Shown here piece after piece: positions 6,578 through 11,852 of a DNA stretch of 34,310 bases. The notes under the pieces were generated by a model. That model saw only the letters and a list, made by a program, of their open reading frames with translations, was not told where the DNA came from and did no database searches. How positions within the stretch are numbered: the first letter of the stretch is position 1; each line of letters opens with the position of its first letter. Source of the DNA: Sulfurovum sp. (GTDB taxonomy: Bacteria > Campylobacterota > Campylobacteria > Campylobacterales > Sulfurovaceae); the NCBI GenBank assembly GCA_027019175.1, contig JALUXB010000009.1:1-34310 (forward strand). Reading direction: 5' to 3'. The position numbers and the translations under genes are program-made.

Positions 6578-6584
6578 ACCTTTA
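6541..6584. repeat. Island-flanking direct repeat, left copy (attL-like)
   Basis: This 44-bp segment covers the last codons and stop of the cobT-like gene. It matches 11059-11102 at 40 of 44 positions by direct reading, with longest identical runs GGAGAAATTTTT and GGTTTATAAACCTTTA. It contains the 12-bp palindrome GGTTTATAAACC. Both copies encode the same peptide end, EKFLGL followed by stop. Confidence 0.8.
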
Positions 6585-6640
6585 TCTGTTGTGTGTAAAA
6601 TTTTCATGTAAAACTTTTTCCTCAATATGTATTACCAAAA

Positions 6641-7288
6641 CTATAAAGTTTTCAAGTGAGCTATTAACTCCAATAGCTCTTCATCTCCAATATATCGTAC
6701 TATGTCAGATAACACTTCATCAAGATCTAAATCAAATTTCTGATAGTCAGCTATCCATGATTGATAATCTATCCAACTTCTACTGATTAGCATGGATAAA
6801 ATAGACTGTATGACCTTCTTTGTATTGCAGTTGTGTATATCTTGATTATCCCTATATCCACTCTCCTGAATGAATCTTCTTGAAATCTGTACAAATCTAA
6901 ATATATCAATCTGCTCTTTAAACTCATCGTAAATATTTTTAAACAACATACTATTTAAGGGTACTGCAATAAATACATTCTTGTTTTTTATTTTGTTATA
7001 GTTGTGAGTATTAGATACTTTATATACTTTTTCTTTACATAGACGGAAGGTTCTAACAAAATTATCTTCAAAATCTATCTCAAGTTCATCCCATCTTCTA
7101 GGCATGACTCTTCTTCTATCTTTACAGATGATAATGTCATTTAATGCTTCATATATTGGATGTTCAAAAAACGATTTTGGCATTTTTGTAGAAAAGCCAC
7201 GTGCCTTAGAATGTTTGCATGCCCTTTGTTCCAACATATGTTCGCGCTCTTCAATTTCTGCTAAATATTCATCTATTCTAATTCTCAT
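6641..7288 (-). CDS. Unrecognised protein of the accessory island (gene 5)
   Basis: I do not recognise this 215-residue protein. It starts at ATG 7288 with a good GGAG site six bases upstream and overlaps the stop of the previous gene by 11 bp. It begins with a charged helical stretch (YLAEIEEREHMLEQR), then basic clusters (CKDRRRVMPRRW), a central KNKNVFIAVPLNSMLF segment and a helical C-terminus ending in EELLELIAHLKTL. There is no signal peptide or membrane helix, so it is probably cytoplasmic. As the last gene of the five-gene minus-strand operon it likely works with the nuclease genes. It ends 57 bp from the left flanking repeat. Confidence 0.7.
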   Translation of the reverse strand: MRIRIDEYLAEIEEREHMLEQRACKHSKARGFSTKMPKSFFEHPIYEALNDIIICKDRRRVMPRRWDELEIDFEDNFVRTFRLCKEKVYKVSNTHNYNKIKNKNVFIAVPLNSMLFKNIYDEFKEQIDIFRFVQISRRFIQESGYRDNQDIHNCNTKKVIQSILSMLISRSWIDYQSWIADYQKFDLDLDEVLSDIVRYIGDEELLELIAHLKTL

Positions 7289-8042
7289 AAAATACTCCAA
7301 ACAGTCTATTACAAATCATGTTTATCATCATACTGACTGTGTCATTGTAATCACTATTTTGCTCTAAAAGTCTCTTTGTCAAGCTTTGAACTTCTTGATA
7401 AGCCATCTCACCATTTTTGATTTTTTCTACAAGCACATCAAGTACCTCATTTAACCTTTTCATAGCTTCACATATATGTCCAAATTCTGCAAGAAAAAGT
7501 AAAAAGAAAAGCGTTTCAATCTCTGTTTTGGTTGCTCTTTTAGCATGATTTATCAATATGTTCATCTCATTTTCATCAACTATATTGTACTTTCTACACA
7601 GAAATCTCCAACATTTGGCAAGAGAAATAATATCCTGTAGTAAAAAAATCTCTTTTTTTAGCTGATAATAGATTTGTAAAGCGTGTGTAGAGATATGTGA
7701 ATAGAAAATAACCTTTTCAAGTAGGCTGATTCGAGAGCTATCGATAAATAACTCATTTTTTATGGCTTCAGAATAAATGGTATATACAGCATCATCCCCG
7801 GCTATTTTAGCCGATTCATACATTAGCAGATTGATTTCTTCTAAAGGAGAAAGATGAAGATTTTCATATTTCATTTGAAAGTTCTTAATGAATATTTCAT
7901 CTGCCCAAATAATATGTTCTAACAACAAGCCTTTAAGTATGCGCTCTGCCACAGGAAATGTTCGTATAAGCGTTTCATCTATCCTCCACTCATCTGCCAT
8001 CTCACACAGAAACTCATGCCGCAAGGCTCTATCATCTAACAT
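7278..8042 (-). CDS. Unrecognised alpha-helical protein of the accessory island (gene 4)
   Basis: From ATG 8042 this gives 254 residues; the open frame extends to 8177 but there overlaps the FtsK-gamma-like gene. ATG 8042 lies in ATGTTAGATGA, overlapping the upstream stop by 11 bp, so coupling is likely. The product looks almost wholly helical (for example RHEFLCEMADEWRIDETLI and SLLEKVIFYSHISTHALQIY) with no catalytic motif I can name. Alternatively the winged-helix domain and this region were one protein now split by a frameshift near 8090-8110, since the upstream frame (CDFIQKNIKDS) also looks codable. It could be an adaptor or effector of the nuclease system; that is inference. Confidence 0.65.
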   Translation of the reverse strand: MLDDRALRHEFLCEMADEWRIDETLIRTFPVAERILKGLLLEHIIWADEIFIKNFQMKYENLHLSPLEEINLLMYESAKIAGDDAVYTIYSEAIKNELFIDSSRISLLEKVIFYSHISTHALQIYYQLKKEIFLLQDIISLAKCWRFLCRKYNIVDENEMNILINHAKRATKTEIETLFFLLFLAEFGHICEAMKRLNEVLDVLVEKIKNGEMAYQEVQSLTKRLLEQNSDYNDTVSMMINMICNRLFGVFYEN

Positions 8043-8244
8043 AACGGAATCTTTTATATTTTTTTGAATAAAGTCGCAAAGTTGCTTTTCTTTGCATGCA
8101 CATATTTTGCTGTATCTGCTCCATATATATTGCTGCACGGTTATATCCGATACCCAATGTTCTTTGTAAAAAAGCAATGGAGTAGTTGTTGTGTTTCAAA
8201 ACGATTTGCCGAGCTTGTTTGAGTTGTTGTTTGCTTACCTCCAT
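8032..8244 (-). CDS. Small stand-alone FtsK-gamma-like winged-helix protein (gene 3)
   Basis: The protein has 70 residues. Residues 7-46 (LKQARQIVLKHNNYSIAFLQ then RTLGIGYNRAAIYMEQIQQN) match the pattern of the FtsK/SpoIIIE gamma domain, whose hallmark is SxxxLQRxLxIGYNRAAxxM. In FtsK that winged helix reads the KOPS sequence. Here there is no motor domain; the remaining 24 residues are basic (RKATLRLYSKKYKRFRYVR). It starts 10 bp after the nuclease gene and overlaps gene 4. It may be a DNA-sequence reader for the system, or the N-terminal part of a frameshifted longer protein. Confidence 0.65.
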   Translation of the reverse strand: MEVSKQQLKQARQIVLKHNNYSIAFLQRTLGIGYNRAAIYMEQIQQNMCMQRKATLRLYSKKYKRFRYVR

Positions 8245-8254
8245 TTTTTCTCTT

Positions 8255-9217
8255 TTAAGCTAACCATTCAGGCATCAAAGTGTATTGTTCCAGTTCTGGA
8301 TGAATATATGGTGCTAACTCAGAATCTTTTATCTTTAAAAAGAGTTCTTCCCATAAAAGAATATTGCTTCCATATTTTTTAAGATGAGTCCAGTCTGAAT
8401 TAGGTCGATGTCCATACGACAAAAGATAATACAGACTAACATTTCTTCCAGTATGTTCTTCCAAGCATTCAACCAAACGTTGATAAAGTTTCATATTCTC
8501 TTTTACGGATGCTCCTATTGTTTTTACTTCAACAATAACTATCCGTTCTTCTCCAATGTGTACAATATCCGGTTTTATATTACTGAAATCTTTATTCCAT
8601 TGAGATTCGTTCAAACCAAAAACTGTATGTGTCAAGCCTCCTTCTACAATAGTGTTTTTACTATTCATTCCACTAAAATCAAGATGCTCCTTTTTAGGAC
8701 TTAACCACTTTTTACTTGTCTTGTTTAGATAGGAAGATTCATATATATTTAACTTCAATGCATTTTCAGTTTTACCCATCCATTCAAATGCCAACTGTGC
8801 TATTGCATTCCATCTGCTTTCAGAATGATGAAAACCCTTATCGCCTTCAAACATATATGTCGCATTTTGCACCAGTGTACTCCTGTCATATTCAATATAT
8901 TGTAATTCACGCTTTATCTCACGTGCATATGCCAATGCTTTTTGCGTTAGAGAATATTTTTGCCCATCGTAATCACTATATTCAAACAAAACAACTTTAT
9001 CTGCCATTTGAACAATTTTTCGTAAATTAAATACTTTTCTTCCTCTATTTTCATACTTATGTGAAATATGGTCATATTTTGAAACAAATTGCTTTACCAG
9101 TTTACAGGCATTAGGCGTTGCACAAAGGATCGTATCAACTTCTGAATTTTCAAGCAGAGCTTTTTCAATTGCCACATAGTCTGAAAAACTATAAGGGCAT
9201 ACAAATGCGATGGTCAT
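8255..9217 (-). CDS. SLOG-like domain fused to PD-(D/E)XK nuclease (island gene 2)
   Basis: The protein has 320 residues and starts at ATG 9217 behind GGGAGA. Residues 1-110 resemble a SLOG/DUF2493 Rossmann-like domain (TIAFVCPYSFSDYVAIEKAL at the start, then NLRKIVQMADKVVLFEYSD and AYAREIKRELQYI), although the usual glycine-rich ligand loop is not conserved. Residues 115-320 carry a nuclease core: Glu192 in NTIVEGG, Pro216-Asp217 in KPDIV, and Glu230-Val-Lys232 in VIVEVKT, which is the PD-(D/E)XK signature. A conserved tail follows (LYYLLSYGH, NILLWEELF, TLMPEWLA). SLOG domains sense or make nucleotide ligands in conflict systems, so this could be a ligand-gated DNase; that is inference. Confidence 0.72.
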   Translation of the reverse strand: MTIAFVCPYSFSDYVAIEKALLENSEVDTILCATPNACKLVKQFVSKYDHISHKYENRGRKVFNLRKIVQMADKVVLFEYSDYDGQKYSLTQKALAYAREIKRELQYIEYDRSTLVQNATYMFEGDKGFHHSESRWNAIAQLAFEWMGKTENALKLNIYESSYLNKTSKKWLSPKKEHLDFSGMNSKNTIVEGGLTHTVFGLNESQWNKDFSNIKPDIVHIGEERIVIVEVKTIGASVKENMKLYQRLVECLEEHTGRNVSLYYLLSYGHRPNSDWTHLKKYGSNILLWEELFLKIKDSELAPYIHPELEQYTLMPEWLA

Positions 9218-9250
9218 ATTTATTTCTCCCGTTTAACTTTTTCATATTGA

Positions 9251-9925
9251 TTATACCCATTCTGGTATCAATGTATATCTATTCAAATCATCACAAAAAT
9301 ACTTTTCAAGTTCACTGCCAATAAGTGATGCAAAAATCTCTTCCCACAACAGTACCTTACCACCAATTTTCTCAAGACGTTTCCAATCTTGAAAACGCTT
9401 GTTCTCATCCACTTTTCCATTCTCACATTGATTACCCTCATCTTCATGCCCGTATGACATGAGGTAATAGAGTTCGCATTTCCATCCCTCTTTTTTAATG
9501 TTTGCTACCAGTTTACTATATCTGTCAAAGTTATCCATACCCTCTTTTTTTCGTCCACGGAGTGTACGTCCTATAGTTCTGACAACAATGAGTACAATCT
9601 CCTTTTTCCTATCGTTTTTATAAATAATATCGGGATATACCCCTGCATTTTCCAAAGATGGAGTCTCCTCCCTAAACAAATATTTAATATTTCCTTCTAC
9701 GGTTGTATTGTCTGCACTCCACCCTTCAGGGGTCAAAGTCAAATCTGATTTGGCAATCCATTCTGCAGGCTCTTTAACTATTTGTGAATGATAAACCGAT
9801 AAACCATCTTTTGCATTTTTCGATAGATAAATTAATGCCAGCTGTGCCATCGTACTCCATCTACTTTGAGAGTGATAAAACCCATTATCTGAATGTCTAA
9901 ACAGATATGTTGCATTTTGTTTCAT
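9251..9925 (-). CDS. Paralogue of the nuclease half with degenerate active site (island gene 1)
   Basis: The 224 residues align from end to end with residues 117-319 of the next gene: QNATYxF, HSxSRW..xAQLA, NTxVEG, YPDII, LYYLxSYGH, LLWEEIF and PEWV are shared. It has no SLOG-like N-terminal domain; ATG 9925 has its own AAGGA six bases upstream, so the short form is probably real. The PD (98-99) is kept, but the catalytic Glu-x-Lys is Val114-Val-Arg116 (LIVVRT), so nuclease activity is probably lost. It may be a regulatory or structural partner that dimerises with the active copy. It opens the operon, divergent from the WYL regulator. Confidence 0.72.
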   Translation of the reverse strand: MKQNATYLFRHSDNGFYHSQSRWSTMAQLALIYLSKNAKDGLSVYHSQIVKEPAEWIAKSDLTLTPEGWSADNTTVEGNIKYLFREETPSLENAGVYPDIIYKNDRKKEIVLIVVRTIGRTLRGRKKEGMDNFDRYSKLVANIKKEGWKCELYYLMSYGHEDEGNQCENGKVDENKRFQDWKRLEKIGGKVLLWEEIFASLIGSELEKYFCDDLNRYTLIPEWV

Positions 9926-9952
9926 ACTTGATCCTTTAATTTATTTGGCTTA

Positions 9953-9976
9953 GCCTGACAAAATATCTTTTCAGGC
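9953..9976. promoter_or_regulatory. Inverted repeat in the operon leader
   Basis: GCCTGA at 9953-9958 and TCAGGC at 9971-9976 form a 6-bp inverted repeat with a 12-bp AT-rich spacer, 28-51 bp ahead of the minus-strand operon start. It could be an operator or a leader hairpin. The evidence is only the symmetry and position. Confidence 0.35.
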
Positions 9977-10000
9977 ACATTTATTTATTTGTCATCTTCC

Positions 10001-10029
10001 TTTTCAAAGACGCTGAGAAATGGTATACT
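10001..10029 (+). promoter_or_regulatory. Probable promoter of the WYL regulator
   Basis: TTTTCA (10001-10006) and TATACT (10024-10029) are separated by 17 bp, giving a sigma-70-like promoter whose start would fall near 10036, at the edge of the dyad at 10035-10053. Only sequence resemblance supports it. Confidence 0.45.
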
Positions 10030-10034
10030 GCAAC

Positions 10035-10053
10035 ATGGTCATTAAATGTCCAT
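10035..10053. promoter_or_regulatory. Candidate operator dyad for the WYL regulator
   Basis: The 19-bp sequence ATGGTCATTAAATGTCCAT is a dyad around a central A with one mismatched pair (T opposite T at the fifth position). It overlaps the expected transcription start of the WYL gene, where binding would block initiation. Autorepression through such sites is known for WYL regulators of defence loci; assigning this site is inference. Confidence 0.45.
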
Positions 10054-10072
10054 ATGATACAAAAAAGATTTT

Positions 10073-10993
10073 ATGATGGAAAAATTACAACAATACCAAA
10101 GACACAATATCATACTCGATAGGCTAAAAAATGGAGAAACACTCTCTATTACTACATTGTCAAGAGAGTGGGGAATTCCTACAAAAACCATTCAGAGAGA
10201 TTTTAAAAAGTTGCAGGAAGGCAATTATGGCGTTGTACGCGCAGAGGATGGTAAACGCTTTAAACTTGCCAAACAAAAGAGTACTCAAACTCAAATATCA
10301 GCACCCCTAAAACTTTTAGACAGCTTTTCTGAAGATATTGGTGGGAAATTTTATACAAAAGCCCAAAATGCTTTGAAACGTACAGAGCCGTATGTAAATA
10401 CTTCATTTTATACTAGAATTGATGTAGAGGACATCTCTGAAAAAGCATCTTTGATTGAACAAATAGAAACGGCTATTACCAAAAAAAGAACTATTTCATT
10501 TGACTATAGACGACATTACAAGCCAACTGAAATAAAACGATATACCCATGTCAAACCTTATAAAATTATTGTTTTTGACGGATTTTTCTACCTTTATTCA
10601 CAACACCATAACTATTTCCCCTCATTTTATCTCAAGGAGATATCAAACCTTTACATTGAAGATAGGACTTTTACCTATGATGAAAATATAGTATCTGCCC
10701 TAAAGAAAGCTCAGAATATTTGGTTCAATCCTAACAAAGAACCTTTTGAAGTAACACTATTTGTTGACAGTACCATCCGTATCTATTTTGAACGAAAACC
10801 ACTGAAAGATCAATTTATAAAAAAGTATCCTGACGGTACAGGAGAAGTTACTTTCAGTGTTACTGATAAACGAGAGGTATTTTCTTTATTGCAAAAATGG
10901 TTGCCTCATACTAAAGTTTTGGAACCAAATATCCTTCAGTATGAATTTGAAAATATGCTTGATGACTATATTCAATATTGTCGCCGTACATAA
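10073..10993 (+). CDS. WYL-domain transcriptional regulator
   Basis: The protein has 306 residues. Residues about 10-60 are a DeoR-type helix-turn-helix (TLSREWGIPTKTIQRDFKKL). Residues about 145-205 are a WYL domain, with RTISFDYRRH, HVKPYKIIVFDGFFYLYSQ (the WYL tripeptide reads FYL) and FYLKEISNL. A C-terminal WCX-like segment follows (FEVTLFVDSTIRIYF and REVFSLLQKWLP). WYL proteins bind nucleic-acid ligands and often control phage-defence operons (CapW/BrxR type). It is divergent from the five-gene operon, which it probably represses. The start may be ATG 10073 or 10076; the ribosome site is weak (AAAAGA). The composition is AT-rich like the island. Confidence 0.85.
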   Translation: MMEKLQQYQRHNIILDRLKNGETLSITTLSREWGIPTKTIQRDFKKLQEGNYGVVRAEDGKRFKLAKQKSTQTQISAPLKLLDSFSEDIGGKFYTKAQNALKRTEPYVNTSFYTRIDVEDISEKASLIEQIETAITKKRTISFDYRRHYKPTEIKRYTHVKPYKIIVFDGFFYLYSQHHNYFPSFYLKEISNLYIEDRTFTYDENIVSALKKAQNIWFNPNKEPFEVTLFVDSTIRIYFERKPLKDQFIKKYPDGTGEVTFSVTDKREVFSLLQKWLPHTKVLEPNILQYEFENMLDDYIQYCRRT

Positions 10994-11058
10994 TTGAAAA
11001 GTTTCTTTACTTGAGAATCTTATAGAGGATATCAAAGAATCACAATAATATATACAGC

Positions 11059-11102
11059 AATTACAGCACAGTTGGAGAAATTTTTAGGTTTATAAACCTT
11101 TA
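11059..11102. repeat. Island-flanking direct repeat, right copy (attR-like)
   Basis: This copy matches 6541-6584 at 40 of 44 positions. Read in the frame of the cobT-like gene it encodes AITAQLEKFLGL and stop, against GITVQVEKFLGL and stop in the intact gene, so coding sense is preserved although the rest of the gene is absent here. It is therefore probably the displaced original 3' end, with the 6541 copy brought in by the island, or vice versa. It lies 49 bp ahead of the antitoxin gene. Confidence 0.8.
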
Positions 11103-11151
11103 AGCAGACATACCATATGATTATGTATAAATAGAATATGTATAGAAGGGC

Positions 11152-11424
11152 ATGATGAATATTGTAAAAGTACGTAAAAACTTTTTGCTGGACAAAGAGA
11201 CGGTAGAAAAGGCGCAAGAGATTATCCTAAAACAGCACAAAAGCCTCACTGAAGCGATCACCCTCTACCTCAAAGCAGTGGTGAAAGACCCTACAGTCTT
11301 GCAAACCATTGAGCAGCGTGCCAAAAAGCGTACCGGCGCATTTATCGGTATACTTGACGGTGAAATTGGCGACAAGACATACAAAGAGATGAAAAAAGAA
11401 GCACTCCGACATAAGGTAGACTAA
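11152..11424 (+). CDS. Antitoxin of a PIN-type toxin-antitoxin pair
   Basis: The protein has 90 residues (89 from the second ATG at 11155, better spaced from AAGGG at 11146-11150). The N-terminal VKVRKNFLLDKETVEKAQEI then SLTEAITLYLKAVV looks like a ribbon-helix-helix DNA-binding fold, followed by a toxin-neutralising tail with TGAFIGILDGEIGDKTYKEM. The stop is two bases before the PIN gene. Such antitoxins usually repress their own promoter. It is the first gene after the right island repeat and appears to head the cobU operon. Confidence 0.75.
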   Translation: MMNIVKVRKNFLLDKETVEKAQEIILKQHKSLTEAITLYLKAVVKDPTVLQTIEQRAKKRTGAFIGILDGEIGDKTYKEMKKEALRHKVD

Positions 11425-11426
11425 TC

Positions 11427-11852
11427 ATGCCCATATTTCTCGATGCCAATATCTGCCTTGATCTGCTCGATACCACCCGACCTACCTCCAAAACCTCCGT
11501 TGCATGGTATATGGCACACAAAGACGATGCAAAGACGCTTTTCTATTTTTCAGGCGATTTCATTACTACCTTTTACTATATTCTTACCGAACGCAGAGGG
11601 GTTGACCGGTACAAAGCCGTACGTGCCATCGATGCTTTGAGTGAAGAGGTTATCCCCTTCTATCTTGAGCAGAGCGATTTTACGGCGGCAAAACAGAGCT
11701 TTTTCGAAGAGATGTTGGATGATTTTGAAGATCTCATTATACTCCACTCAGCCCTGCGTGCAGGATGTACCTCACTGCTTACCAACGATACGGCACTGCT
11801 GCATCTCAAAGATTTTGACACCCTTCACATCAAGGCACCCTTACACACATGA
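11427..11852 (+). CDS. PIN-domain ribonuclease toxin, VapC-like
   Basis: The protein has 141 residues. PIN-type acidic residues are in place: Asp6 in FLDANICLDLL, Glu55 in YILTERRG, Asp98/Asp99/Asp102 in MLDDFEDLIILHSA, and Asp121 in LLTNDTALL. VapC-type toxins cut RNA, often tRNA, when released from antitoxin. The last codons overlap cobU by 4 bp (ATGA), so toxin and cobalamin enzyme are translationally coupled, which is an unusual place for a toxin gene. Confidence 0.82.
   Translation: MPIFLDANICLDLLDTTRPTSKTSVAWYMAHKDDAKTLFYFSGDFITTFYYILTERRGVDRYKAVRAIDALSEEVIPFYLEQSDFTAAKQSFFEEMLDDFEDLIILHSALRAGCTSLLTNDTALLHLKDFDTLHIKAPLHT

Follow-up and report, generated by a model that had tools for sequence, protein, structure and literature searches.

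The closest mechanistic precedent for the locus described here is Can1 of type III CRISPR, which, like our operon, combines a Rossmann-type sensor and a PD-(D/E)XK nuclease with a degenerate nuclease-like domain, in Can1 one that is needed for activity (PMC6981274). This nuclease-like domain has no active-site residues, and charge reversal of two arginines in it abolished activity (PMC6981274). However, Can1 is a single polypeptide with two CARF domains, whereas the dead half in our window (the whole stretch of 34,310 nucleotides that was analysed, from contig C9 of a Sulfurovum-type genome, G000) is encoded by a separate gene and has no sensor domain. Can2, Card1 and VC1899 (CARF-PD-(D/E)XK) are homodimers of active subunits. 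The long protein of the window has the same domain order, and a Foldseek search with its whole model placed two such two-domain Rossmann plus PD-(D/E)XK proteins on top, VC1899 (1xmx, E=4.2e-4) and Can2 (8bao, E=1.1e-3), but with a TM score of only 0.24, and its N-terminal domain appears closer to SLOG proteins. Membership in the type III CRISPR CARF effectors (Can1, Can2, Card1) was rejected, since the Csm1/Cas10 model TIGR02578 was silent in the window's genome; it was also silent in two relatives (G056 and G005) and present in a third (G036).

In XPF-ERCC1 and in RecBCD (RecC), too, a live nuclease domain works with a dead relative, which contacts DNA or holds the substrate in position. Unlike the window operon, which has no helicase, these are DNA repair machines with an unrelated domain context. 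In BspD6I, both subunits are catalytic, recognition resides in the large subunit, and such systems carry a methyltransferase. R.BspD6I is a PD-(D/E)XK nuclease of two unequal subunits (PMC6261011), and both of them, Nt.BspD6I (Z 6.7) and ss.BspD6I (Z 5.8), are among the nearest folds of our short model. Nevertheless, we rejected a heterodimeric type IIS restriction endonuclease, because one subunit of the window pair lacks the E and the K and the operon proteins gave no methyltransferase match. CBASS was rejected as well, because the SMODS cyclase model PF18144 was silent in four genomes and the operon itself has no cyclase. Furthermore, PADLOC-DB gave no credible match for the nucleases, the FtsK-gamma protein or proteins A and B; the WYL regulator alone matched. 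Pairing of a live with a dead nuclease is recurrent (Can1, XPF-ERCC1, RecC), but for a separate dead gene with a constant V-x-R, next to a nuclease with a sensor-like domain and a stand-alone FtsK-gamma domain, the searched libraries contain no described counterpart. The operon is compact and testable, both for the contribution of a dead nuclease subunit and for the question of whether nucleases have come to be targeted or licensed through FtsK-gamma domains.

A nuclease and its catalytically dead paralogue

The features of the locus are listed in Table 1. The two nuclease genes are both on the minus strand and are separated by 33 bp, with the short gene directly upstream of the long one and promoter-proximal in the window operon.

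Table 1. Features of the nuclease locus, with positions counted from the first letter of the window
Feature	Position	Strand	Remarks
Insertion between cobT and cobU	6578..11848	.	only 53 bp in a relative whose CobT is 88% identical
Protein A, no family	6641..7288	-	
Protein B, no family	7278..8042	-	
Stand-alone FtsK-gamma mini-protein, 70 aa	8032..8244	-	Pfam PF09397, E=1.9e-12; GYNRAA segment
Long nuclease, 320 aa	8255..9217	-	residues 1-112 Rossmann/SLOG-like, ~117-320 PD-(D/E)XK; D217, E230, K232
Short catalytically dead PD-(D/E)XK paralogue, 224 aa	9251..9925	-	
Codons of the short copy	9629-9631 (D99); 9584-9586 (V114); 9578-9580 (R116)		
Palindrome ATGGTCATTAAATGTCCAT between regulator and operon	10035..10053	.	
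Divergent WYL-domain transcription regulator (HTH-WYL-WCX)	10073..10993	+	
DUF6364-PIN toxin-antitoxin-like pair	11152-11852		in the same cobT-cobU insertion

A sequence-only reading had proposed that the two products are paralogues, one of which has lost its catalytic residues. BLASTP confirmed the paralogy (33% identity and 53% positives over 230 positions, E=3e-36). The active-site signature PD-x12-E-V-K is intact in the long copy (D217, E230 and K232), and the columns of the short copy that face these residues hold D99, V114 and R116, giving V-x-R. The same reading had both products keep an upstream glutamate and a common end. Indeed, the Glu of TVEG/TIVEG (E192/E77) and the P-E-W end are common to both window products, but the C-terminal Trp is not kept in the short copies of all relatives; in G005, a stop after PD removes it.

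D217, E230 and K232 are invariant in all long copies, which represent four lineages. The nuclease domain of the long copies has 64 invariant columns; 46 of them are also invariant across all short copies, and 7, E230 and K232 among them, are lost in every short copy. The Asp of "PD" is still present in the short copy of the window and is replaced by Asn and Ser in those of two relatives. The long protein therefore belongs to the PD-(D/E)XK superfamily, by the core fold of its model and by the Asp/Glu-x-Lys signature. The short protein lacks the residues of a PD-(D/E)XK enzyme (V-x-R in all copies, and another residue for the Asp in two of the three lineages), and since the fold is shared and the catalytic Asp and Glu-x-Lys are not conserved, it is a member as a pseudoenzyme only. 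Motifs kept in the short copy are the upstream Glu E77, HS-E/Q-SRW and SYGHE. Just past the dead strand lies a basic loop common to the short copies, VVRTIGRT-x-x-GRKKE, with 5 to 6 K/R in 16 residues compared to 2 to 3 in the long copies; other short-specific features are a conserved insertion after SYGHE (DEGNQCE-G) and K208 in place of P.

Three Sulfurovum lineages have a short copy: the window and G056, which differ by one amino acid, G005 and G022 (the latter two 57 to 62% identical to that of the window). They form a single clade in a maximum-likelihood tree whose root is not fixed (bootstrap/SH-aLRT 100/99), so that the V-x-R form is a separate clade, and none of the short homologues in the three lineages has an intact E-x-K. 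Nor is the short gene a decaying pseudogene: the frames are open and undamaged, and pairwise dN/dS is ~0.12-0.18, which indicates purifying selection and is of the same order as the ~0.15-0.2 of the long copies, although the short-copy values are approximate because dS is saturated (1.5-2.2). The short copy is real, conserved and selectively kept, and an active/inactive duplicate within one operon, as had been proposed, is supported. One old duplication followed by vertical descent would be compatible with the tree; a recent tandem duplication in the window was ruled out, because the short clade is older than the split of its three lineages (root not fixed).

A dead copy is not needed in every lineage, since it is absent beside the long copy in two of the four long-copy lineages (G036 and Helicobacteraceae 4484_230). 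In G022 (L018:440-2435), an intact dead copy lies beside the WYL gene, a transposase-like gene (insertion sequence) follows, and the rest of the operon, including the long copy, was not detected in that genome.

Predicted structures, operon partners and regulator

AlphaFold2 models, built on shallow alignments, reached a pLDDT of 81 and a pTM of 0.61 for the long protein and a pLDDT of 82 and a pTM of 0.85 for the short one. The long model has a five-stranded alternating alpha/beta N-terminal domain (1-112), followed by a C-terminal PD-(D/E)XK domain with an alpha-beta-beta-beta-alpha-beta core (helix 133-148; strands 155-161, 172-180, 218-221 and 225-231; helix 242-256; strand 259-266). The short model corresponds to this second domain alone. 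Its nearest neighbours are mostly PD-(D/E)XK nucleases, at modest Z scores of 5 to 7 (BstEII, AF1548, Cdn1, Nt.BspD6I, SdaI, Can2, VC1899, EndoMS, ss.BspD6I and Can1). Sub-threshold PDDEXK_4 and AHJR-like matches of the nucleases are compatible with the fold. The N-terminal domain is never present in short copies, and no sensor domain is hidden before the start of the short gene, since the upstream frame closes within a few codons. This domain has no Pfam match, and its best VIA Z scores are to YpsA (10.8), a Moco-binding protein (10.1), DprA (8.1) and ThsA-SLOG (7.5). Because these are its nearest matches in the comparison, we call it SLOG-like, with eIF2B and other Rossmann folds nearly as high (~8); judged by the model, it appears most like SLOG nucleotide sensors.

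Downstream of the long copy, the FtsK-gamma mini-protein and protein A are found in all four lineages (window/G056/L022, G005, G036 and L024). The GYNRAA segment of the mini-protein corresponds to GYNRSA of the host FtsK and to the solved FtsK-gamma domain 2j5p, and mini-proteins with an intact GYNRAA are also encoded in relatives at L024:4857-5054(+), L020:7037-7210(-) and L017:1760-1972(-). KOPS motifs are bound by FtsK-gamma (PMC2680272), and it is possible that the mini-protein is a KOPS reader tied to the nuclease. A literature search for FtsK-gamma domains that stand alone in defence systems found no paper.

Protein B, the start of which we place at the ATG at 8042 because homologues begin there, is kept in three of the four lineages and is missing in G036. 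In the latter (L020:6343-7047), an N-terminal extension of protein A resembles the start of protein B, as though the two had become one through an in-frame deletion. No family was found in Pfam, NCBIfam, PADLOC or PHROGs for the nucleases, protein A or protein B. One motif of protein A, PRRWDELEIDF..LC..VYKVSN, has a weak counterpart in a small protein with Cys residues that is encoded next to a restriction-modification enzyme of another Sulfurovum. This 123-aa protein of G012 (L037:5711-6082; CPLKWDDL..HYCEVC..NVYQVSN) is encoded directly 3' of the large restriction-modification-like enzyme; the protein A version is Cys-poor.

The loci of relatives also vary around the nuclease genes. In G036 and L024, the long copies carry another N-terminal domain and are preceded by a 108-aa protein, with no short copy or WYL gene adjoining, and the long copy of G005 has an inserted DUF4116 stretch. 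Just 5' of the short gene of G005 (L017:4194-4445), a ClpX-type C4 zinc-finger mini-protein is encoded (83 aa, PF06689), by reading likewise in G022; the window has none.

WYL regulators are frequent companions and controllers of phage-defence systems (PMC9122588, PMC9122601). A divergent WYL regulator was present at every short-copy locus whose upstream side was covered, and a similar palindrome lies near the regulator start, at the same gap, in the window, G005 and G022. The palindrome is likely the WYL operator.

A tentative model and its alternatives

In our model, which we propose tentatively and with somewhat less than even confidence, the operon encodes a two-subunit effector nuclease composed of the live long and the dead short protein, and it is probably a defence system. 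We infer the long-short heteromer, which the earlier reading had also suggested, from co-conservation, the shared fold and the analogy to Can1. The long protein would be the live subunit, in which a SLOG-like Rossmann domain that may sense a small ligand precedes an intact PD-(D/E)XK domain. The dead copy would pair with it via the common fold and supply a non-cutting half, and its Arg/Lys-rich loop, which has no counterpart in the live copy, would be suited to hold nucleic acid. Such a pair may give a single cut or a nick instead of two. The FtsK-gamma mini-protein would probably contact DNA, and the WYL protein would control expression. Counting against a two-subunit nuclease are the lack of a second-messenger synthase in the operon, the two long-copy lineages without a short copy, the one genome with a short but no detectable long copy, and the modest fold matches (Z below 7 for the short model, TM 0.24 for the whole long model); Csm1-type Cas10 and the SMODS cyclase also gave no match in the window's genome. 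In its most far-reaching form, the model describes an anti-invader system of Campylobacterota, in which a ligand-sensing SLOG-PD-(D/E)XK nuclease forms an obligate heteromer with the dead subunit and FtsK-gamma directs or licenses it via host chromosome-orientation motifs, thereby distinguishing self from foreign DNA; we consider this very doubtful.

The main rival to the two-subunit nuclease is a brake, in which the dead copy would act in the manner of an antitoxin, keeping the live nuclease inactive by binding to it or by competing for its dimer interface until the SLOG-like domain receives a signal. The promoter-proximal position of the short gene directly before the long one fits an antitoxin encoded first, and the WYL regulator appears to control expression. 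Orphan antitoxins often survive, and an intact orphan short gene persists beside an insertion sequence in G022. However, two lineages tolerate the live nuclease with no short copy next to it, and the conserved basic loop points to contact with nucleic acid and not to inhibition. We regard a brake as conceivable but rather unlikely.

It is improbable, in our opinion, that the short copy has become independent of the nuclease and serves another function, such as DNA or RNA binding or autoregulation together with the WYL protein. The basic loop, the DEGNQCE-G insertion and K208 are specific to the short copies, and the orphan in G022 adjoins the WYL gene, but elsewhere the short gene immediately precedes the long one within a single operon, and the majority of its motifs are common to the live copy.

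That the short copy is a relic being lost is largely refuted and highly improbable: the drift of the catalytic Asp (D, N, S), the final Trp lost by the stop in G005 and the two lineages without a short copy would fit, but the open frame in three lineages at 57 to 62% identity, the low dN/dS and the same V and R everywhere speak against it. Catalytic residues are known to migrate in the PD-(D/E)XK superfamily, and E77, HS-E/Q-SRW and SYGHE are retained, but with Val for E230 in all short copies and an Asp that is not conserved within the clade, there is only the slimmest chance that the short copy still cuts by means of a rearranged active site.

Distribution and mobility of the locus

Homologues are rare. 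Profile searches gave matches in 6 of 78 genomes of the genus. One of these (G039) was weak only and was rejected as a relative, because it is a different PD-(D/E)XK-like protein and no other part of the operon accompanies it. When 397 genomes were drawn evenly across the phylum, matches were confined to the window's own genome, and no relatives were found in the viral contigs, plasmids and phages searched. A scan of 84,980 species genomes returned six loci, all in Campylobacterota, with patterns that need a conserved stretch, so that remote kin could be missed.

The locus is near-identical in the window and in G056 (L019), mostly with 0 to 3 differences per 200 bp. The exception is a sharply bounded block at ~8.0-9.0 kb with 7 to 10% divergence, which takes in the live nuclease domain, the FtsK-gamma gene and the beginning of the gene for protein B. 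Near-identity broken by such a block suggests, with the usual caution for metagenome assemblies, that the locus was recently exchanged and that the live-nuclease cassette was exchanged separately. The operon is apparently mobile. The gap between cobT and cobU measures 5.3 kb in the window and 53 bp in the relative listed in Table 1, and the two genes abut in G022.
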